A stretch of 64,000 nucleotides of DNA from Micromonospora coerulea (lineage in GTDB: Bacteria > Actinomycetota > Actinomycetes > Mycobacteriales > Micromonosporaceae). The translations under genes were made by a program, and so were the position numbers. A model generated the notes under the pieces. It did no database searches and had not been told where the DNA came from. It saw nothing but the letters and a program-made list of their open reading frames with translations. Position 1 is the first letter of the stretch. Each line of letters opens with the position of its first letter. Positions 28,214 through 36,795 of the stretch are shown one piece after another. Where the stretch lies: NCBI RefSeq assembly GCF_016598485.1, contig NZ_JAEMUW010000002.1:248001-312000 (forward strand), written 5' to 3'.

Positions 28214-28263
28214 TGAGCGATATACCTGAGAGGCATATTTATGACGCCCAGGTATATCGCTCA
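28214..28263. repeat. AT-rich inverted repeat with 15-bp perfect arms
   Basis: TGAGCGATATACCTG (28214-28228) and its exact reverse complement (28249-28263) enclose a 20-nt centre that itself contains CATA-tt-TATG. The block is far richer in A+T than its surroundings. It lies between the convergent ABC transporter operon and the RibD-like gene, so it may be a two-way terminator. Yet its AT content and nested half sites (ATATACCT, AGGCATAT, AGGTATAT) look more like an operator array or a short mobile remnant. Confidence 0.55.
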
Positions 28264-28309: not shown

Positions 28310-29002
28310 TCAGGGCCCCGGGCAGCGGTCGGAGAGGGCGTACCGGGTCAGCACGACGTCGTCGATCTGGCGGACCTCCAGCACCCGGGCCCGTCGGCCG
28401 GGATGCCAGGGGAAGCGGCCGTCCCCGACGAAGCGCGGCGCCCGGCCGTCGCCGACGAAGAACGGCGCGACCACCAGGTGCAGCTCGTCGGCGAGCCCGG
28501 CGCTGAGGAACTGGGCGTGCACGATGCCGCCCCCCTCGACCATCAGCCGGCGCACGCCCCGGGCGGCCAGGTCGGCCAGCACCGCCGCCGGCCCGACCGG
28601 CTCGCCGACGTCGACCACGGCGGCCACCGCGCCCAACCGCTCGCGGGTCTTCTCCAGCGCCCCGCTCGGGCAGTAGACCAGCTTCGTCGCCTCGCCCATG
28701 GTGAAGAAGCGGGCGGTCGGGTCGAGGTCCCCGCTCGCGGTGACGGTCACCTTCACCGGGGACGGCGGCAGGCCGCGGGCCGCCCGCTCGGCCCGGCGCC
28801 GATCGGAGCGCACCAGCAGCCGCGGGTCGTCCCGACGTACGGTGCCCGCGCCGACCAGGATGGCGTCGCAGCCGGCGCGGACCTCGTCGATCCGGTCCAG
28901 GTCCTCGGCATTGGACAGCAGCAGCCGCTCGGTCGAGGCGTCGTCGATGTACCCGTCGATCGACATGGCGCAGCTGAGCAGCACGTACGGTCGGGCGGTC
29001 AC
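28310..29002 (-). CDS. RibD C-terminal/dihydrofolate reductase-like NADPH reductase
   Basis: 230 residues of the RibD_C fold, the reductase part of riboflavin synthesis (pyrimidinone reductase), without the deaminase domain. Visible motifs: YVLLSCAMSIDGYIDD, DAILVGAGTVRRDDPRLLVR and VRRLMVEGGGIVHAQFL, the last being the NADPH and substrate loop of RibD reductases. The GTG start overlaps the GTP cyclohydrolase II stop by 4 nt. It is the last gene of a seven-gene minus-strand operon. It could reduce a ribitylated pyrimidine or a pterin-like product of the upstream genes. Confidence 0.85.
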   Translation of the reverse strand: MTARPYVLLSCAMSIDGYIDDASTERLLLSNAEDLDRIDEVRAGCDAILVGAGTVRRDDPRLLVRSDRRRAERAARGLPPSPVKVTVTASGDLDPTARFFTMGEATKLVYCPSGALEKTRERLGAVAAVVDVGEPVGPAAVLADLAARGVRRLMVEGGGIVHAQFLSAGLADELHLVVAPFFVGDGRAPRFVGDGRFPWHPGRRARVLEVRQIDDVVLTRYALSDRCPGP

Positions 29003-29652
29003 GGCACGAACGGCAGGTCGAGGGCGTGGTCGCCGCGGCTGACCTTCGCGGCCAGGTAGCCGGCGTTGGCCGGGGACAGGTGCACTCCCGTGGGCACCCG
29101 GTCGGCCACCGTGACGCCGAGCCGGTCGAGTTGGGCGGCCTTGTCCGGGTTGTTGCTGAGCAGGACGACGCGGGAAACCCCGAGCGCGGCGAGCATCTGC
29201 GCGGCCACCGTGTAGTCCCGCTCGTCCGCTCCCCGGCCCAGCGCCAGGTTCGCCTCGTACGTGTCCAACCCGGCGTCCTGGAGGGCGTACGCGTCGAGCT
29301 TGGCGTACAGGCCGATGCCGCGGCCCTCCTGGCGCAGGTAGAGCAGGAAGCCGTCGGCCTCGGCGATCCGCTCGACCGCCTCGCGCAACTGTGGGCCGCA
29401 GTCGCAGCGCTGGCTGCCGAAGACGTCGCCGGTCAGGCACTCGCTGTGCGGCCGGACCATCGGTGGCGGCCCACCGGCGGTGTGCCCGGCCACGGCCGCT
29501 GCCCACTCACCGAGGCCGAACGCGAGATGTTCCCGGCCGTCGACCAGGCCCTCGAACGAGAAGACCCGGGCCGTCGTGACGTACCCGTCGGGAAACCGCA
29601 GTGGAACCGTGACCTGGGTCCGGACCGTCGCCGCCGGCAGGGTTTCGTCCAT
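28999..29652 (-). CDS. GTP cyclohydrolase II (RibA-type), single domain
   Basis: 217 residues. Opens the imidazole ring of GTP, releasing formate and pyrophosphate, to give a diaminopyrimidine. The zinc site C72/C83/C85 is intact in HSECLTGDVFGSQRCDCG and the catalytic loop is RQEGRGIGLYAKLDAYALQD. It is not fused to the DHBP synthase RibB, unlike most actinobacterial riboflavin enzymes, and sits outside a complete rib operon. It may therefore be a paralogue dedicated to this cluster. ATG with AGGAG upstream; the stop overlaps the reductase start. Confidence 0.88.
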   Translation of the reverse strand: MDETLPAATVRTQVTVPLRFPDGYVTTARVFSFEGLVDGREHLAFGLGEWAAAVAGHTAGGPPPMVRPHSECLTGDVFGSQRCDCGPQLREAVERIAEADGFLLYLRQEGRGIGLYAKLDAYALQDAGLDTYEANLALGRGADERDYTVAAQMLAALGVSRVVLLSNNPDKAAQLDRLGVTVADRVPTGVHLSPANAGYLAAKVSRGDHALDLPFVP

Positions 29653-29717
29653 CGTTCTCCTCCGTCCGGCGCTGCCGGACGTGCCGGCGGCGCACACCAA
29701 GGTCCACGGTATGCCGA

Positions 29718-30866
29718 TCAGGGCGCGCAGTGGGTCCTCGGAATCCGGAGCTGGCGCCGCAGCAGCACGGCCGCACCGGGCAGGCTGGCGACGAGCACCA
29801 GCGCGCCGTACACCGTGGCGGCCGCGACGCCCTGCGCCGCGGTCAGCCCGGCGGCGGCGAACGCCCACGCGGCCACCCCCTCGCGCGGGCCGAAGCCGCC
29901 GACGTTGGCCGGTACTCCCATCGCGAGCAGGGCCAGCAGCGTCAACGGCACCAGTTGGGTCAGCGGCGCGTCGGCCCCGGCGGTGCGCGCCGCGACCACG
30001 AAGGTGGCCAGGTGCCCGGCCACCACCACCGCGGAGGCGACCAGCACGCCGGCCCAGGTACGCCGGGCGAGCAGTCCGGCCCGCACGTCGGCGATGCCGG
30101 TGCGCAGCGCCCGCCCCCACGCCGACGTCCCACCGCGGGGTGCCACCCGGGCGAGCAGGACCAGGCCGAGCCCGGCGGCCAGCAGCGCGCCGGCCACCGC
30201 GGGCAGGTACCGCCGCACCGGGGAGGGCAGCGCGGCCAGCACCAACACCGCGATGACGAGCTGGACGACCTGCCCGGCGGTGCGTTCCCAGACCACCGCG
30301 CGGACACCCCGGCCGACGTCGCCGGCGTCCCGGCCGTGCCGCACCGCCCGGTGCACGTCGCCGAGCACCCCACCCGGGAGCGTCGAGTTGAGGAAGACGG
30401 CGCGGTAGCAGTGGGCCACCGCCACGCCGAGCGGCAGCCGGATCCCGAGGCCCTCCGCGACCAGCGCCCACCGCCAGGCGCAGCAGACGGTGGTGACCAG
30501 GCCGATGGCGAGGGCAGCGGCGATCGCGGGCCCGTCGATCAGTCGCAGCCCGGCGAGGAACGGCCCGGTGCCCACCGACCAGACCAGCGCGGCGAGCACC
30601 GCGAGCCCGGCGAGGGTGCGCACCCAGGGCCACGGCGACCGCGCCACGCGGGCCGGCACCGCCGCGCCGGTCCCGGCGGGCGCGGGCCGCGGGGCGGACA
30701 CCGGGGTGGGCGCGGGCACTGCGGCGGGCACCGGGGCTGCCGGCGCGGCGGGCGCGGGCGCGGCCGGCCTTGTCCGGGGTACGCCGGGCGGGGCGATGGT
30801 CGCGGGTGGCAAGCGGTCCTCCCTCGGTCCACCCGTTGTCACGCACCGCAGGGCGGTCCGGTTCAC
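29718..30866 (-). CDS. lysylphosphatidylglycerol synthase/flippase-like membrane protein (UPF0104)
   Basis: 382 residues. The first 75 are a Pro/Ala-rich disordered cytoplasmic stretch. The rest carries about eight hydrophobic helices with the family markers FLNSTLPGGVLGDVHRAVRHGRDAG and ANVGGFGPREGVAAWAF. These are the membrane part of MprF-like and related proteins that move or modify lipid-linked molecules; no catalytic LPG synthase domain is attached. GTG overlaps the methyltransferase stop by 4 nt. Within the cluster it is the likely membrane export or flipping step. The N-terminal start is uncertain because of the low-complexity tail. Confidence 0.78.
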   Translation of the reverse strand: MNRTALRCVTTGGPREDRLPPATIAPPGVPRTRPAAPAPAAPAAPVPAAVPAPTPVSAPRPAPAGTGAAVPARVARSPWPWVRTLAGLAVLAALVWSVGTGPFLAGLRLIDGPAIAAALAIGLVTTVCCAWRWALVAEGLGIRLPLGVAVAHCYRAVFLNSTLPGGVLGDVHRAVRHGRDAGDVGRGVRAVVWERTAGQVVQLVIAVLVLAALPSPVRRYLPAVAGALLAAGLGLVLLARVAPRGGTSAWGRALRTGIADVRAGLLARRTWAGVLVASAVVVAGHLATFVVAARTAGADAPLTQLVPLTLLALLAMGVPANVGGFGPREGVAAWAFAAAGLTAAQGVAAATVYGALVLVASLPGAAVLLRRQLRIPRTHCAP

Positions 30867-31678
30867 CCGCCGGCCAGCAGGTCGGCGTGGTGCAGCAGCA
30901 CCCGCAGCCGCCCCTGCGCCGCCTCGGCGAGCCGCCGCCGCCGGTATGCCCGGGCCCGGCCGGCCAGCTCCGGCCGCTGCTCGCCGGCCGCGTCGAGCCA
31001 GCCGGTCAGCCATGCCGCGGTCAGCGCCGCCTGCTCCGGGCCGAGCCGCCACGGGCTGGGCCGGGTCCGTACGTCCACCCCCCGCCGGCCGAACGCGGCC
31101 CGGGTGGCCTCGACGGCGTCCGGCCCGAGGAGGGCGCGGCCGCCGACGGTACGGCGCTGGTGCGCGTTGAACGCCGCGGCGAACTCCGCGTCGAGCGGGT
31201 CGGCGGGGGTGAACTCGACCCGGCCGACCACGGTCAGCATGAACATCGTCGGGTGCCCGGCGCAGGCCGCCACCACCCGCTCGACCTCCTCGGCGGTGAG
31301 CATGTCCAGCAGCGCCGAGGCGGTGACCAGGCCGGCGTCGGCGAGGTCGGCGGCGGTCAACCGGGTGATGTCGGCGCGCCGGGTCTCCACGGTGACCGGG
31401 CTGCCGTCGGCGGCGGCGTCCACCAAGTCGGCGGCGGCCCGGTCCAGCAGGCCGGCGTCCTGGTCGTACAGGATCCAGTGCTGCGGGCCGGGCAGCAGCG
31501 GCGCCAGCCACCGCCCCATCGAGCCGGTGCCGGTGCCCAGGTCGTGCACCACCACCGGCCGGTCGCCGGTGAGCCCGCGGCGGACCGCGTCGGCCAGCTC
31601 GGTGGCCCGGGCCGCGGCGTCGGCGGGCTCGCGCAGCCGCAGCCAGTCCGCGAAGTCGGGCGGAAGTTGCGTGGTCAT
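30863..31678 (-). CDS. class I SAM-dependent methyltransferase
   Basis: 271 residues. Motif I VVHDLGTGTGSMGRWLAPLL binds S-adenosylmethionine, the acidic motif II is WILYDQDAGLLDRA, and the later motif VTASALLDMLTAEEVERVV completes the Rossmann-like domain. The target is unknown; neighbours suggest a glycosylated, GTP-derived small molecule. The ATG overlaps the glycosyltransferase stop (ATGA) and its own stop overlaps the flippase-like gene start, so expression is tightly coupled. Confidence 0.85.
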   Translation of the reverse strand: MTTQLPPDFADWLRLREPADAAARATELADAVRRGLTGDRPVVVHDLGTGTGSMGRWLAPLLPGPQHWILYDQDAGLLDRAAADLVDAAADGSPVTVETRRADITRLTAADLADAGLVTASALLDMLTAEEVERVVAACAGHPTMFMLTVVGRVEFTPADPLDAEFAAAFNAHQRRTVGGRALLGPDAVEATRAAFGRRGVDVRTRPSPWRLGPEQAALTAAWLTGWLDAAGEQRPELAGRARAYRRRRLAEAAQGRLRVLLHHADLLAGG

Positions 31679-32712
31679 GCCGCCGTTGCCTCCTTCAGTA
31701 CTGTCGCCAGGCGGTTCGTGGTGACCGTCCAGTCGGTGAGGGTGGCCCGCCGGTCCCGCGCCGACCGGCGCAGCCGGGCCCGCAGCGCGGGCTCGGTGAG
31801 CCAGCGGCGCAGCGCGCCGGCCAGCGCGGCCGGGTCGTCGGGCGGCACCAGCAGGCCGGGGCGGCTGCCGTCGGGAGCCTGCCCGAGCGCCTCGGGCAGC
31901 CCGCCGACGTCGCTGCCCAGCACCGGTACGCCCCGGGCCAGCGCCTCGGTGACCACCATCCCGTACGTCTCCCCGCGCGAGGGCAGCACCAGCAAATCGG
32001 CGGCGGCGTACGCGGCGGCCAGCGCCGGGCCGGTGCGCGGGCCGGCCAGCGGGACCCGGTCGTCGAGTCCGGTGTCGGCGAGCTGCCGGCGCAGCGCGTC
32101 GACGAAGGCGGGGTCCCGGGTCAGTGGGCCGACGAGCTGGCAGGTCCAGGGCAGGTCGGCGATCGTGGCCAGGGCGGCGACCAGCACGTCGTGTCCCTTG
32201 TGCGGGCTGACCGCCGCGACGCAGAGCAGCGCCGTGCCGGCGACCGAGGCGGCGGCCGGGGGCGCGGGGTCCACGCCGGGTGGGGCCGCGCGGACCCGGT
32301 CGGCGGGCAGCGGGTACCGGTCGAGCAGCCGGCGGCGGGTCCACTCGCTGGTGGTGACCACGGCGGTGGCGGTGGCCAACGCCCCCGCCTCGGCGTGGGT
32401 CTCCAGGGGCAGGTGCACGAGCACCACCAGGCGCAGCCGGCGGGCCTGTGGGCCGAGCACCTCCGGCACGGTGGCGGCGACGAGCCCGTCGAGCAGGACC
32501 GGCGCGCCGTCGGGCAGGGCGGCGAGCACCCCGGCGAGCGCGGCCCGCTCCCCCGCGCCCGGTCGTGGCCATCGGCCGGGCACCGGGTGCTCGCGGACGG
32601 TCCAGCCGGCCGCGGCGAGCCCGGCGCAGACCCGGCGGTCGTAGCGGTTGCCGCCGCTCGGGGTGGCCGGGTCGTCGATGTCGCCCGGCAGCACCACGTG
32701 CACCGCGGTCAT
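31675..32712 (-). CDS. GT4-family glycosyltransferase
   Basis: 345 residues, GT-B fold. The C-terminal half has the nucleotide-sugar site of family 4: CVAAVSPHKGHDVLVAAL and LVLPSRGETYGMVVTEALARGVPVLGSDVGG with the E-x7-E motif. No signal or membrane anchor. Transfers a sugar from a nucleotide donor to an unknown acceptor. Located between the PTPS-fold gene and the methyltransferase in the minus-strand operon, 3 nt after the former. Confidence 0.88.
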   Translation of the reverse strand: MTAVHVVLPGDIDDPATPSGGNRYDRRVCAGLAAAGWTVREHPVPGRWPRPGAGERAALAGVLAALPDGAPVLLDGLVAATVPEVLGPQARRLRLVVLVHLPLETHAEAGALATATAVVTTSEWTRRRLLDRYPLPADRVRAAPPGVDPAPPAAASVAGTALLCVAAVSPHKGHDVLVAALATIADLPWTCQLVGPLTRDPAFVDALRRQLADTGLDDRVPLAGPRTGPALAAAYAAADLLVLPSRGETYGMVVTEALARGVPVLGSDVGGLPEALGQAPDGSRPGLLVPPDDPAALAGALRRWLTEPALRARLRRSARDRRATLTDWTVTTNRLATVLKEATAA

Positions 32713-32715
32713 CGG

Positions 32716-33114
32716 TTACAACGACCGCTCGTAGCTGGCCCAGGCGACGTGCGACTCGTGCAGGGTGACGGTGATCCCGGCCAGGCCGCGCGCGCCGTCG
32801 CCGAGCCGGCCGGCGCGCGCCCGCTCGGCGAGCCGGTCGGCGACCGTGCGGGCCAGCACCTCGGTGGTGGTGTTCACGCCCGTGAAGTCGGGCTCGTCGT
32901 CCAGGTTGCGGTAGGTCAGCTCGCCGAGGACGGCCTTGAGCTGCACGGTGGCCAGGCCGATGTCGACCACGATGCCGTCGGCGTCGAGGTCCGGCCGGCG
33001 GAAGGTGGCGTCGACGACGAAGGTGGCGCCGTGCAGCCGCTGGGCTGGGCCGAAGACCTCACCGGTGAAGCTGTGGGCCACCATCATGTGGTCCCGGACG
33101 GTCACGCTGAACAC
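32716..33114 (-). CDS. 6-pyruvoyl-tetrahydropterin synthase (PTPS/QueD)-fold protein with altered zinc site
   Basis: 132 residues. The overall PTPS pattern is kept: [53 protein letters not shown], and the C-terminal [10 protein letters not shown]. True PTPS and QueD enzymes use three zinc histidines (one early, then HxH) and a Cys just before the HxH. Here H14 and H28 remain, but position 30 is Ala instead of His and the catalytic Cys is missing. It therefore probably does something other than the classic pterin lyase reaction. GTG start three nt after the dehydrogenase stop. Confidence 0.75.
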
Positions 33115-33117
33115 GGA

Positions 33118-34095
33118 TCACTCCTCGTCGTAGGTGATGAGCTGGCACAGCGCGGGCAGCCGGCCCGAGCCGAGCCGGTCGAGCACGTCGGGCAGCTCCG
33201 CGAAGCGGGAGCGGCCGGTGAGCAGCGCGTCGAAGGCCGGGTCGGCGAGCAGGTCGAGCGCCAGCGCCAGCCGGTCGGTGAAACTCCGGTCGGCCCGGCG
33301 CGGCGACACCGTGCCCACCTGGCTGCTGCGGATGCTCAGCCGACGCGAGTGGAACGTCCCGCCGAGCGACAGCGTGATCGGACGGTCGCCGTACCAGCTC
33401 AGCTCCAGCACTGTGCCCTCCGGGCGGAGCAGCTCCAGCGACCGTTGCAGGCCGGCGGCGCTGGCGCTGGCGTGCACCACCAGGTCCCGCCCGCCGGCCG
33501 CGTCGGCGGGCAGGGCGAAGTCGACGCCGAGCGCGGCGGCCACCGCGGCCCGTGCGGGGTCGGCGTCGACCAGCTCGGCGCGTACGCCGGGGAAGCGGGC
33601 CAGCAGGGCGGCGACGCAGCAGCCGACCATGCCGCCGCCGACCACGGTGACCCGGTCGCCGACCAGCGGCGCGGCGTCCCACAGCGCGTTCACCGCGGTC
33701 TCCACCGTGCCCGCGAGGACCGCCCGGGCCGCCGGCACGCCCTCCGGTACGACCACCACCGCGTCGGCCGGCACGACGTACGCGGTCTGGTGCGGGTACA
33801 GGCAGAAGACCGTGCGCCCGCGCAGCGCGTCGGGCCCCTCCTCGACCACGCCGACACTGAGGTAGCCGTACTTGACCGGGGCCGGGAAGTCGCCCTCCTG
33901 GAACGGGGCGCGCATGGTGACGTACTGGTCGGCGGGAACCCGGCCGGCGAAGACAACGCTCTCGGTGCCCCGGCTGACGCCCGAATAGCGGGTGCGGACG
34001 AGGACCTCGTGGGGGCCGGGGTCGGGGACGGTCACCGGCCGGATCTCGCCCTCGCCGGGGGCGCGGAGCCAGAAGGCACGGGCGTCGCGGGTCAC
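33118..34095 (-). CDS. medium-chain dehydrogenase/reductase family protein
   Basis: 325 residues. GroES-like N-domain with the subgroup motif YSGVSRGTESVVFAG and a Rossmann NAD(P) site VTVVGGGMVGCCVAALLARF. The lone acidic and Cys residues expected for catalytic zinc are not all visible, so it may be a zinc-independent member resembling the BchC-type dehydrogenases. First gene of the seven-gene minus operon; GTG with GAGGGA upstream. Divergent from a CDP-alcohol phosphotransferase 91 bp away. Likely oxidises or reduces an intermediate of the cluster product. Confidence 0.8.
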   Translation of the reverse strand: MTRDARAFWLRAPGEGEIRPVTVPDPGPHEVLVRTRYSGVSRGTESVVFAGRVPADQYVTMRAPFQEGDFPAPVKYGYLSVGVVEEGPDALRGRTVFCLYPHQTAYVVPADAVVVVPEGVPAARAVLAGTVETAVNALWDAAPLVGDRVTVVGGGMVGCCVAALLARFPGVRAELVDADPARAAVAAALGVDFALPADAAGGRDLVVHASASAAGLQRSLELLRPEGTVLELSWYGDRPITLSLGGTFHSRRLSIRSSQVGTVSPRRADRSFTDRLALALDLLADPAFDALLTGRSRFAELPDVLDRLGSGRLPALCQLITYDEE

Positions 34096-34186: not shown

Positions 34187-35032
34187 GTGTCCACGGTTCG
34201 GAAGGGCCCGGTACTCGGGTTCGTCGCCCAGTTCGTCCTGCTGGCCGGGCTCGCCGGCACGGTCGGCCTCGGCCCGGCCGGTTGGCTGGCCGGCCTGGCG
34301 TACGGCGCCGCCCTGTGCGTCCTGTTGCGACGGGGCCTGCGGGCCGCCGGGGCGGACGGGCTGGGCCCGGCGGACCGGGTGACCCTGACCCGGGCGGTCC
34401 TGGTCGGCGGGGTGCTGGCCCTGACCGTGGCCGGCTGGGGACGGCCGGCGCCGGTGGCGGTGCTGGTGCCGCTCACCGCCGTCGCGCTGGCGCTGGACGC
34501 GGTCGACGGCCGGGTGGCCCGGCGTACCGGGACCGCGAGCGACCTCGGCGCGCGGTTCGACATGGAGGTCGACGCCTTCCTGATCCTGGTGCTCAGCGTC
34601 CACCTGGTGCCCGCTGTCGGCGGCTGGGTGCTGGCCATCGGCGCGATGCGGTACGCCTTCGTCGCCGCGAGCTGGCTGCTGCCGTGGATGCGGGGCACGC
34701 TGCCGCCGCGCTACTGGCGCAAGGTCGTCGCGGCCGCGCAGGGCGTGGTGCTGGCCGCCGCGGCCACGACGGCGCTGCCCCCGACGGCGACGGCCGTGCT
34801 GGTGGCGGGCGCCCTGGCCATGCTGGTCGAGTCGTTCGGCCACGACGTCGCCTGGCTGTGGCGGCACCGCCCGGCCCGCCGCGTCGTCGCCGTCCCGGGC
34901 GGACACGTCGCCGTCCCGGCCGGGCATGTCACCGGCCCGCGCGCCATGCGGGTCACCGTCACCCGCGTCAGGTCCGTCGCTTCCGCCGGCGAACCGGCCG
35001 CCGCCCGGTGGACGGCCCACCAGCCGGTCTGA
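34187..35032 (+). CDS. CDP-alcohol phosphatidyltransferase-family enzyme
   Basis: 281 residues. The full catalytic motif D107-G-x2-A111-R112-x8-G121-x3-D125-x3-D129 is present, so it should join a CDP-alcohol to an acceptor alcohol with release of CMP. About six hydrophobic segments surround it; the N-terminus (residues 10-45) holds the first two. The C-terminal 60 residues are Val/His/Arg-rich and extra to the family. Products made by the family range from phosphatidylglycerophosphate to inositol lipids; which applies is not visible. GTG start after GGAGG; followed by a sulfatase-fold gene 50 nt downstream. Confidence 0.87.
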   Translation: MSTVRKGPVLGFVAQFVLLAGLAGTVGLGPAGWLAGLAYGAALCVLLRRGLRAAGADGLGPADRVTLTRAVLVGGVLALTVAGWGRPAPVAVLVPLTAVALALDAVDGRVARRTGTASDLGARFDMEVDAFLILVLSVHLVPAVGGWVLAIGAMRYAFVAASWLLPWMRGTLPPRYWRKVVAAAQGVVLAAAATTALPPTATAVLVAGALAMLVESFGHDVAWLWRHRPARRVVAVPGGHVAVPAGHVTGPRAMRVTVTRVRSVASAGEPAAARWTAHQPV

Positions 35033-35082: not shown

Positions 35083-36795
35083 ATGTCACTCATCACCCGC
35101 CTGCGTCGATCGGGGACGGCGTCGGCAACCGACGGCGACCCCGCGCCCGACGACGCGCCGGTCGCGGCGTCCCGGGGCCGCCGGGTCGCGGCGGGCGTGC
35201 TCACCGGGCTCGCCGCGGCGCTGGTGCTGGCCGCGCTCGTCGTACCGGACCAGCTCGCCCGGCTGCACCCCGGCGCGTTCCTGCGGATCCCGGTGGAGGC
35301 GCTGGTCGCGGTCGCGCTGCTGCTCGTCCTGCCGGTCCGGGCCCGCCGGCCGGTGGCCGTGGCGTTCGGTCTGGCGCTCGGCCTGCTGACCGTGCTCAAG
35401 CTCCTCGACATGGGCTTCTTCGTGGCCCGGGACCGGCCGTTCGACGTGCTGCTCGACTGGCGGCTCCTCGACGACGGCTTCGGCTTCCTCACCGACTCGG
35501 TCGGGCGGGGCGCGGCGGTCGCCGCCGCGGCCGGGGTGCTGCTGCTCGCCGCCGCGCTGTTCGTCCTGCTGACCCTGGCCGTGCTGCGGCTGACCCGGCT
35601 GGTGGTCCGGCACCACACGGGGGCGGTCCGCGCGGTCGCGGCGCTGGCGGTGCTCTGGCTCGGCTGCGCCGTGTTCGGGGTACGGCTCTCCCCGGGGATG
35701 CCGGTCGCGGACCGGGCGGCGACCACGCTGGTGGCGGCGCACGCCGCCCAGGTCCCGGCCGGGCTGCGGGACCGGAAGGCGTTCGCCGGCGAGGCGGCCA
35801 CCGACGCCTTCCGGGACGTCCCCGGCGACCGGCTGCTGACCGGGCTGCGCGGCAAGGACGTGCTGGTCGCGTTCGTGGAGAGCTACGGCCGGGACGCGGT
35901 CGAGGACCCCGAGTTCGCCCCGCACGTCGACGCGGTGCTCGACGACGGCTACCGCCGGCTGCGGGCGGCCGGGTACGACGCGCGCAGCGGCTTCCTCACC
36001 TCCCCCACGTTCGGCGGCGGGAGCTGGCTGGCCCACGCCACCCTGCTCTCCGGACTCTGGATCGACAACGACCAGCGGCACCGCGACCTGCTGGCCGGGG
36101 ACCGGCTCACCCTCAACGGCGCGTTCCACCGGGCCGGCTGGCAGACGGTCGGCGTCATGCCCGCCGCCACCCAACCCTGGCCGGAGGGGAAGTTCTTCGG
36201 GTACGACCGCTACTACGACGCGGAGAAGCTGGCCTACCGGGGCCCGAAGTTCAGCTACGCGCCGATGCCCGACCAGTACACCCTCGCCCAGTTCCAGCAG
36301 CGGGAGCGGGCGCGTCCACACCCGCCGCTGATGGCGGAGGTTCCGCTGGTCTCCAGCCACTCGCCCTGGTCGGCCATTCCGGAGCTGGTCGACTGGGACG
36401 CGGTCGGCGACGGCTCGATCTTCCACACCGCGTCCACCAGCACCGGCGGCAGCCGGGACGTCGTGCAGCGGGACGCCACGCAGGTCCGGACCGACTACCG
36501 GCACTCCATCGAGTACAGCCTGGAGACCCTGGTCTCGTACGTGCTGACCTACGGCGGGGACGATCTGGTGCTGGTCTTTCTCGGCGACCACCAGCCGGCC
36601 ACCGCGGTCACCGGTGAGGGCGCCAGCCGGGACGTCCCGATCACCGTGGTGGCGCACGACCCGGCGGTGTTCGACCGGATCGCCGGCTGGGGCTGGCAGG
36701 ACGGGCTGCGCCCCGGGCCGCGGGCCCCGGTCTGGCGGATGGACACCTTCCGGGACCACTTCCTCAGCGCCTTCGGTCCGGGGCTCGCCCGCTGA
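35083..36795 (+). CDS. membrane-bound sulfatase/LTA-synthase-like phosphotransferase
   Basis: 570 residues. Four or five transmembrane helices fill residues 35-215. The extracytoplasmic catalytic domain of the alkaline phosphatase superfamily follows: FVESYGRD (metal ligand Glu), a nucleophile region in SPTFGGGSWLAHATLLSGL, VSSHSPW and the metal-binding GDHQPA near the end. This layout resembles lipoteichoic acid synthase and other phosphoethanolamine or phosphoglycerol transferases rather than soluble sulfatases. Coupled with the CDP-alcohol enzyme, it may transfer a lipid head group at the cell surface. Ribosome site GAAGGGAAGG upstream. Confidence 0.82.
   Translation: MSLITRLRRSGTASATDGDPAPDDAPVAASRGRRVAAGVLTGLAAALVLAALVVPDQLARLHPGAFLRIPVEALVAVALLLVLPVRARRPVAVAFGLALGLLTVLKLLDMGFFVARDRPFDVLLDWRLLDDGFGFLTDSVGRGAAVAAAAGVLLLAAALFVLLTLAVLRLTRLVVRHHTGAVRAVAALAVLWLGCAVFGVRLSPGMPVADRAATTLVAAHAAQVPAGLRDRKAFAGEAATDAFRDVPGDRLLTGLRGKDVLVAFVESYGRDAVEDPEFAPHVDAVLDDGYRRLRAAGYDARSGFLTSPTFGGGSWLAHATLLSGLWIDNDQRHRDLLAGDRLTLNGAFHRAGWQTVGVMPAATQPWPEGKFFGYDRYYDAEKLAYRGPKFSYAPMPDQYTLAQFQQRERARPHPPLMAEVPLVSSHSPWSAIPELVDWDAVGDGSIFHTASTSTGGSRDVVQRDATQVRTDYRHSIEYSLETLVSYVLTYGGDDLVLVFLGDHQPATAVTGEGASRDVPITVVAHDPAVFDRIAGWGWQDGLRPGPRAPVWRMDTFRDHFLSAFGPGLAR

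Follow-up and report, generated by a model that had tools for sequence, protein, structure and literature searches.

A conserved actinomycete gene cluster predicted to divert a GTP-derived pyrimidine from riboflavin synthesis

What does a bacterium make when a GTP cyclohydrolase II (GCHII) and a RibD_C-type pyrimidine reductase, both enzymes of riboflavin synthesis, share one operon with a glycosyltransferase, a methyltransferase and a flippase-like membrane protein? The question is raised by positions 28,310 to 34,095 of a 64,000-nucleotide stretch of Micromonospora coerulea DNA (the window; contig NZ_JAEMUW010000002.1, positions 248,001 to 312,000), which belongs to a genome of 6.8 Mb whose nearest relatives in our trees are Micromonospora. 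Seven minus-strand genes encode a medium-chain dehydrogenase/reductase (MDR), a protein of the PTPS fold (T-fold), a GT4-family glycosyltransferase, the methyltransferase, the flippase-like protein, GCHII and the reductase. GCHII and the RibD_C reductase domain are common to this operon and the bacterial riboflavin operon, whereas the pyrimidine deaminase, RibB, RibE and RibH are absent; domain scans found none of these four in nine window proteins, namely the seven and the products of two divergent genes. The original prediction, made from the letters of the window alone, read the operon as the source of a GTP-derived, glycosylated and methylated product. Our analysis confirms the observation itself and partly supports the interpretation: with a probability of roughly 0.6, a dedicated cluster takes GTP to 2,5-diamino-6-ribosylamino-4(3H)-pyrimidinone 5'-phosphate (APy) with its own GCHII, diverting APy from riboflavin, and then tailors it.

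All seven family names hold in domain scans, that of the MDR on sub-threshold matches together with its Rossmann glycines. The genes are tightly coupled, with 4-nt overlaps at the RibD_C/GCHII and methyltransferase/GT4 junctions and 3-nt gaps at the GT4/PTPS and PTPS/MDR junctions. A single wider gap, of 65 nt, had been described; it lies between the GCHII and flippase-like genes, and that it is the only one does not stand as given. The start of the flippase-like gene is uncertain, being either TTG at 30,812, preceded by GGGAGG resembling a ribosome-binding site, or GTG at 30,719 without such a motif; with the TTG start, 50 nt separate it from the methyltransferase gene, which makes two gaps of 50–65 nt in the operon.

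The PTPS-like protein served as the query of a locus search, and the best 80 of its 407 confirmed relatives define 80 named loci from 14 assigned genera and three further genomes (21 Micromonospora loci and 59 others); its own presence in 80/80 loci is therefore by construction, and distant versions of the cluster are under-represented. The MDR and GT4 genes are each found in 80/80 named loci, the flippase-like gene in 77, the methyltransferase gene in 76, a divergent CDP-alcohol phosphotransferase gene in 73, GCHII in 68, RibD_C in 40 and a second divergent gene, for a lipoteichoic acid (LTA)-synthase-like protein, in 21. Gene calls in the loci were made with a codon-usage script that misses some genes, e.g., most Streptomyces creatininases (recovered by tblastn). 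Seventeen flanking genes were taken as control: outside Micromonospora none occurs in more than 5/59 loci, and the commonest, an ABC ATPase gene, reaches 12/80. These sharp borders bear out the predicted dedicated cluster. The seven-gene operon with the divergent CDP-alcohol phosphotransferase gene is a unit conserved in many soil actinomycetes, far beyond Micromonospora, and the LTA-synthase-like gene, which had also been put forward as a possible extension, is an optional partner whose position varies (in L096, L105 and L119 it stands at the other side of the cluster). Two samples drawn without regard to the gene gave the PTPS marker in 80/121 genomes from the family of the window (E 1e-25) and in 67/150 from a single genus (E 1e-20); from the trees, we take these groups to be Micromonosporaceae and Streptomyces, respectively. 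In a deep lineage of the phylum (family code f18), whose proteins are about 31–40% identical to those of the window, the order RibD_C-MDR-PTPS-GT4 is kept in 6/6 fetched loci (L123–L128), arguing that the cluster is probably old. A methyltransferase-family gene is called in four of these six, and FolB-family and PlsC-type acyltransferase-family genes lie divergent to the cluster in all of them (Pfam: L124 and L126).

The clue to the chemistry comes from GCHII (28,999–29,652, minus strand; PF00925, 187 bits), a stand-alone enzyme that scores 250.7 bits against the NCBIfam RibA model NF001591 (cut-off 148) and 183.7 bits against TIGR00505, under the cut-off of 205.85. The zinc cysteine pattern of the HSECLTGD...CDCG type is found in 68 of the 69 script-called cluster GCHIIs. 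We take the product to be set by the equivalent of Tyr105 of E. coli GCHII, with Tyr giving APy and Met, as in Streptomyces coelicolor SCO6655 (Met120), stopping at the formylated intermediate FAPy; in the cluster enzymes this position is presumably the Tyr of AYALQD (KLDAYALQD in the window). The Tyr of YLRQEG was rejected as the switch, its column being Tyr in all 69 enzymes. At the switch position the 69 comprise 26 Tyr (the window, other Micromonosporaceae and Marmoricola), 36 Met (Streptomyces, Actinacidiphila and one Amycolatopsis), 6 His and 1 Cys (Pseudonocardia, Actinomadura and one Amycolatopsis). Three further GCHIIs read by tblastn are Tyr in L077 and L117, both Pseudonocardia, and Met in L090.

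This residue is paired with a second gene. Within the fetched loci of 4–19 kb, a creatininase-family gene (PF02633, 214 bits) is present in 44/44 loci with a Met, His or Cys GCHII and in 0/28 loci with a Tyr GCHII, the window included. For L077 and L117 the absence of the creatininase was seen first, and Tyr was predicted from the pairing and then read as Tyr. In the Actinomadura loci L089, L095 and L106, the cluster has GCHII at one end and the creatininase at the other, showing that the pairing is not mere adjacency. BrbF, a creatininase-family formamidase of rhizobia and Brucella, is reported to convert FAPy to APy (PMC9478397), and the natural reading is therefore that the cluster needs APy and obtains it in one step or two. 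As judged from residues and gene content, two cluster ways to APy would be the simplest reading of the pairing, and we strongly favor APy as the branch point. The Tyr-type GCHII would convert GTP to APy in one step; in Streptomyces and relatives, the Met/His/Cys type would stop at FAPy, which the creatininase-family amidohydrolase would then deformylate to APy.

In the GCHII tree, which contains long branches and leaves out the deep-lineage RibBA rows L149 and L150, the cluster enzymes form three lineages, namely the window type (100/99), the Met and His/Cys types (98/86) and the Pseudonocardia Tyr pair (100/100). None is nested within the clade of 8 RibBA rows (95/85), which the Pseudonocardia pair joins on an unstarred branch only. 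The predicted GTP-derived product gains support here, because three GCHII lineages occur in the cluster and the alternation of Tyr and creatininase indicates APy. Two window-type GCHIIs stand in other settings: in G008, where the PTPS gene is on another contig, one open frame of 610 aa joins GCHII to an acyl-CoA-dehydrogenase-like domain (L141:7858-9690), and in G419, which is without the PTPS cluster, GCHII (L140:7756-8421) lies beside genes that look by eye like those of a carrier protein and an adenylation enzyme.

What would become of APy is suggested by RibD_C (28,310–29,002, minus; PF01872, 151.6 bits, gathering cut-off 24.1), a reductase domain alone, without deaminase. Its nearest solved structure is 5xux (115 bits); it matches 6p8c, which is named as the APy reductase, with 87 bits, and its best NCBIfam match is the archaeal pyrimidine reductase model TIGR01508 (133.8 bits, under the cut-off of 186.45). 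RibD_C is present in 26/26 Tyr loci among the named loci, 24 of them with the window-like type, and 6 of the 12 named loci without GCHII also carry a window-like RibD_C. In the window type this enzyme would reduce the ribose to give a ribityl phosphate, a step that we hold with moderate confidence. Where 5xux reads DGK and the RibD of this genome DGR, window-type RibD_C reads DGY; this Tyr is found in 27/40 members of the RibD_C family, the other 13 including six deep ones.

The original prediction had raised the question of an ordinary rib operon elsewhere in the genome. A separate and complete one, RibD-RibE-PnuC-like-RibBA-RibH, lies at C114, making the cluster cyclohydrolase a paralogue; with two GCHII matches in the genome as well, the idea that it is the only RibA is rejected. 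Genomes of the Streptomyces type can have a window-like GCHII together with a window-like RibD_C at a great distance from the cluster (L135, L136 and L142); in G128, G023 and G193 the distance to the PTPS gene is 2.9–3.4 Mb. In G128, placed among Streptomyces by the trees, the RibD_C relative lies 3.4 Mb away from the cluster and forms a fusion with a deaminase domain. The predicted absence of deaminase, RibB, RibE and RibH thus stands for the nine window proteins, but a missing deaminase is not a general trait. Open frames L135:8830-9966, L136:6942-8069 and L142:8515-9666 have the look of an inverted RibD, with the reductase domain first and the deaminase C-terminal; a Pfam deaminase match is shown in L135 only, and the other two are of similar length.

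Across the 150 genomes taken as Streptomyces, window-type GCHII (at least 257 bits, a cut set by us) occurs in 43/67 genomes with the cluster PTPS gene versus 2/83 without it, and window-type RibD_C (E 1e-30) in 54/67 genomes with it; Fisher tests on such co-occurrence ignore kinship. Canonical RibD (E 1e-10) is present in 6/6 tested genomes with neither cluster nor window-type RibD_C, in 5/6 with the cluster alone and clearly in 3/5 with RibD_C alone. Five of the six tested cluster genomes without window-type RibD_C (G401, G424, G428, G457 and G524) carry canonical RibD and, some 3 kb away from the PTPS gene, another RibD_C of the distant type. Since these genomes keep canonical RibD, the distant RibD_C is not needed for riboflavin there; it looks as if the cluster may need its own reductase when the window-type RibD_C is missing.

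Several observations weigh against a cluster built around APy. On the MDR+PTPS+GT4 tree, which covers 70 of the 72 loci (L047 and L112, each with one gene uncalled, are left out), the pairing amounts to only two independent changes, both concordant. The locus count must therefore not be taken as an event count, and in a sign test two independent pairs cannot reach significance. The reading also presumes the role given above to the switch residue. Among the 12 named loci without GCHII, a creatininase is found only in L098, and five lack GCHII, RibD_C and creatininase altogether; of these, contig ends truncate L043, L063 and L072, but L078 and L111 are full length. No GCHII lies near the cluster in the six deep-lineage loci, and neither these nor L129 have a creatininase in the fetched locus. 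RibD_C is missing from the locus in 34/42 Met/His/Cys loci, the other eight having a distant RibD_C, so that the reduction is not general to every version of the cluster. In the Streptomyces sample, RibD_C is also found in 20/83 genomes without the PTPS gene, and canonical RibD is missing in 11/11 tested genomes with both the cluster and window-type RibD_C. In these genomes window-type RibD_C may thus serve riboflavin, which confounds the co-occurrence and weakens it as independent proof. Among the ten rib loci compared, L145, L146, L147 and L154 have RibE-PnuC-RibBA-RibH only; together with the missing canonical RibD (0/11), this suggests that the inverted RibD may be the riboflavin RibD there.

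The creatininase itself is a further point of doubt. It scores only 37.9 and 32.4 bits against the archaeal ArfB model NF033501 (cut-off 180) and comes nearest to the MftE model (129–132 bits, under the cut-off of 172), which leaves the deformylase activity a prediction; in addition, two more distant BrbF homologues are reported not to have complemented (PMC9478397). These scores, the failed complementation and the small number of independent changes would suit an explanation that we consider rather unlikely, in which the enzyme is some other amidohydrolase, MftE-like peptidase or otherwise, and the Tyr/Met split marks two cluster lineages only. Against it stand the agreement of 44/44 versus 0/28 across three GCHII lineages and the retention of the creatininase at the end opposite to GCHII in Actinomadura or without a nearby GCHII in L098. 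Moreover, BrbF too was annotated as a creatininase and is described as being without sequence similarity to ArfB (PMC9478397).

If APy is indeed the branch point, the next question is what the T-fold protein does with it. The PTPS-like protein (32,716–33,114, minus; PF01242, 78.8 bits) is the counterpart of S. coelicolor SCO6650, with whose structure, 3d7j, it aligns over 132/132 residues (223.5 bits). With QueD/PTPS (COG0720) it has in common the T-fold, two of the three zinc histidines and a Glu, but it differs in catalytic and zinc residues. The catalytic Cys is Ala in 91/91 rows, the catalytic His gives way to Tyr in 90 rows and to Leu in one, and Ala replaces the third zinc His in 85/91, the six deep rows (L123–L128) keeping it. 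The catalytic set of PTPS and QueD (three zinc histidines, Cys and Asp/His) is accordingly missing from the protein, and queuosine precursor synthesis was rejected as its function, a canonical QueD-type protein being encoded elsewhere in the genome. The Glu is conserved in 91/91 rows and presumably holds the 2-amino-4-oxo edge of pterins. It favors a substrate that still carries its 2-amino group, which agrees with the lack of a deaminase in the window cluster. We propose that this zinc-less protein would bind the 2-amino-4-oxo edge of the ribityl compound or of a derived pterin. Next to it, the BchC-like MDR (33,118–34,095, minus) scores 27.0 bits against PF00107 (cut-off 31.8) and has BchC as best NCBIfam match (44.7 bits, under the cut-off of 291); in a family of 90, the GHE zinc motif occurs in none, an SRGTE-like motif stands in its place in 84, and the Rossmann glycines are found in 90. 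It would adjust a side-chain alcohol or ketone.

The same T-fold protein also allows a pterin to be the product, an idea we regard as tentative at best. The protein would close the second ring on APy by Amadori rearrangement and cyclisation, as GTP cyclohydrolase I does in the latter half of its reaction, and RibD_C, which has the fold of the DHFR superfamily, would reduce the pterin instead of the ribose; the pterin would then be glycosylated, methylated and lipid-linked or exported. The invariant Glu in a PTPS fold speaks for it, as does the FolB-family gene divergent to the cluster in 6/6 deep-lineage loci (assigned by clustering, and by Pfam for L124), and the absence of RibD_C from so many Met/His/Cys loci suggests that ribose reduction may be dispensable. 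However, RibD_C lies nearest to ribosylamino-pyrimidine reductases, with DHFR (1cz3) as the last row at E 0.0006, and FolB may belong to ordinary folate metabolism. This PTPS group is not known to have a ring-closing activity, which also counts against a pterin. A bolder version is correspondingly improbable: GCHII, with or without the creatininase-type deformylase, would open the imidazole ring and the zinc-less PTPS-family protein would close the pterin ring, giving a second GTP-to-pterin route that bypasses GTP cyclohydrolase I. Its pterin would be glycosylated, methylated and joined to a phospholipid by the CDP-alcohol phosphotransferase, as a membrane-anchored redox glycolipid of differentiation.

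Returning to the APy route, the remaining genes encode tailoring and membrane enzymes, and the product is probably glycosylated, methylated and membrane-linked. Family membership gives weak indications of the order and substrates of these later enzymes and of the lipid linkage. GT4 (31,675–32,712, minus; PF13692, 96.5 bits; PF00534, 95.5 bits) would add a sugar; it scores 84.8 bits against the MshA model, far under the cut-off of 462.5, and an E-x7-E motif pattern matched 37/90 sequences and was too strict to use. The S-adenosylmethionine-dependent methyltransferase (30,863–31,678, minus; class I fold; PF13649, 29.4 bits, cut-off 27) would add a methyl group. Its AlphaFold2 model (pLDDT 93.5) has 3mgg, JHAMT, LahSb and OxaG as best Foldseek rows, with RebM further down, that is, general methyltransferase folds only and no hint of the substrate in that search. 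The methyltransferase is not found in 4/80 loci, so methylation looks like tailoring. The flippase-like protein (29,718 to about 30,812, minus; LPG_synthase_TM/UPF0104, PF03706, 96.7 bits) would move the product across the membrane.

Divergent to the operon, the CDP-alcohol phosphotransferase (34,187–35,032, plus; PF01066, 43.8 bits, cut-off 22) would attach a phosphatidyl-type group to a polyol or its phosphate, and a lipid part of the pathway is plausible. The motif D-x2-D-G-x2-A-R-x8-G-x3-D-x3-D is intact in 71/71 called genes, matched with a slightly relaxed pattern. In motif and fold the enzyme resembles phosphatidylglycerophosphate and phosphatidylinositol-phosphate (PIP) synthases, at 17% identity. 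The model (pLDDT 85.3) has phosphatidylglycerophosphate synthase as best fold match (Z 15.0, root mean square deviation 3.1, 166 residues) and reaches Z 11.8 with PIP synthase (3.5, 157 residues); designed helical proteins attain Z 9.3 in the same fold list, and a helical Z below about 13 may reflect a common arrangement. Neither VIA-align nor Foldseek decides between acceptors, the latter giving no match at E 0.001. Both best-scoring folds use phosphorylated polyol acceptors, which a ribityl phosphate would resemble, as far as a model can suggest. The sulfatase-fold LTA-synthase/phosphoglycerol-transferase-like membrane protein (35,083–36,795, plus; PF00884, 29.0 bits, cut-off 25; no NCBIfam match) would decorate the product in some species.

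A further view of the cluster is offered by S. coelicolor. The gene order PTPS-GT4-methyltransferase-flippase-creatininase-GCHII in L079 and L081 appears to fit SCO6650–SCO6655 when mapped by number. This cluster resembles that of the window in the PTPS-like protein; the Streptomyces clusters combine a Met-type GCHII with a creatininase, usually with no RibD_C in the locus, whereas the window joins a Tyr-type GCHII and RibD_C in one operon. SCO6655 is reported to be a biochemically studied GCHII with FAPy as product, and SCO6650 has a structure in the PDB (3d7j). "Uncharacterised", as the operon had been called, thus suits the product and does not wholly suit the parts. In Table 2 of PMC2853524, expression of the GCHII paralogues SCO6655 and SCO2687 correlates with predicted riboflavin flux at r -0.61 and -0.52; the two are listed among 15 genes running counter to predicted flux, a set described as mostly up in stationary phase. 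Table 3 of PMC3610822 gives log2 rises of 0.8, 4.3 and 4.1 for SCO6652 at 24, 48 and 72 h in the second mycelium. Both patterns are what one would expect if the pathway served differentiation or secondary metabolism. A rival view that we find very improbable makes the locus an additional riboflavin supply under different regulation, like the one suggested for rhizobial BrbF, with the glycosyltransferase and membrane genes a separate pathway that shares the locus by chance: GCHII and RibD_C are riboflavin enzymes and the Streptomyces RibD_C relative can bear a deaminase and may be the sole RibD, but RibB, RibE and RibH domains are absent from the nine window proteins scanned, the MDR-PTPS-GT4 core stays with RibD_C in 6/6 deep-lineage loci, and the two cyclohydrolase genes are expressed opposite to riboflavin flux (PMC2853524).

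How does such a route compare with known ones? The archaeal entry into riboflavin and F420 by ArfA, ArfB and ArfC, like the bacterial BrbF system, has in common with the proposed route the sequence GTP, FAPy, APy and ribityl compound, a formamidase and a deaminase-less RibD_C. The cluster differs in having GCHII instead of GTP cyclohydrolase III, no RibB, RibE or RibH, and additional tailoring and membrane genes. A bacterial 8-azaguanine pathway likewise turns APy, made there with E. coli RibA, into a specialised product; it differs in forming a triazole with nitrite or nitric oxide (PMC7109123). No description of the cluster or its product was found in the open-licence literature searched. 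What is new here is the assembly of known enzyme families, a combination that matches no pathway known to us or found in that literature.

Just outside the operon, in the space where the ABC ATPase and RibD_C genes converge, lies a 44-bp palindrome, GCGATATACCT-N22-AGGTATATCGC, at 28,217–28,260. Ten copies with exact arms occur in the genome versus none for a reversed control pattern, and it may be a dispersed repeat or a terminator.

For the biology of these bacteria, the pairing of cyclohydrolase type and creatininase suggests why S. coelicolor keeps extra cyclohydrolases beside a crippled PTPS protein: FAPy would be made for the adjoining creatininase. APy would provide one concrete intermediate for a widespread cluster, and its product, if confirmed, might prove to be a novel pigment, cofactor or surface lipid of actinomycetes that undergo differentiation.

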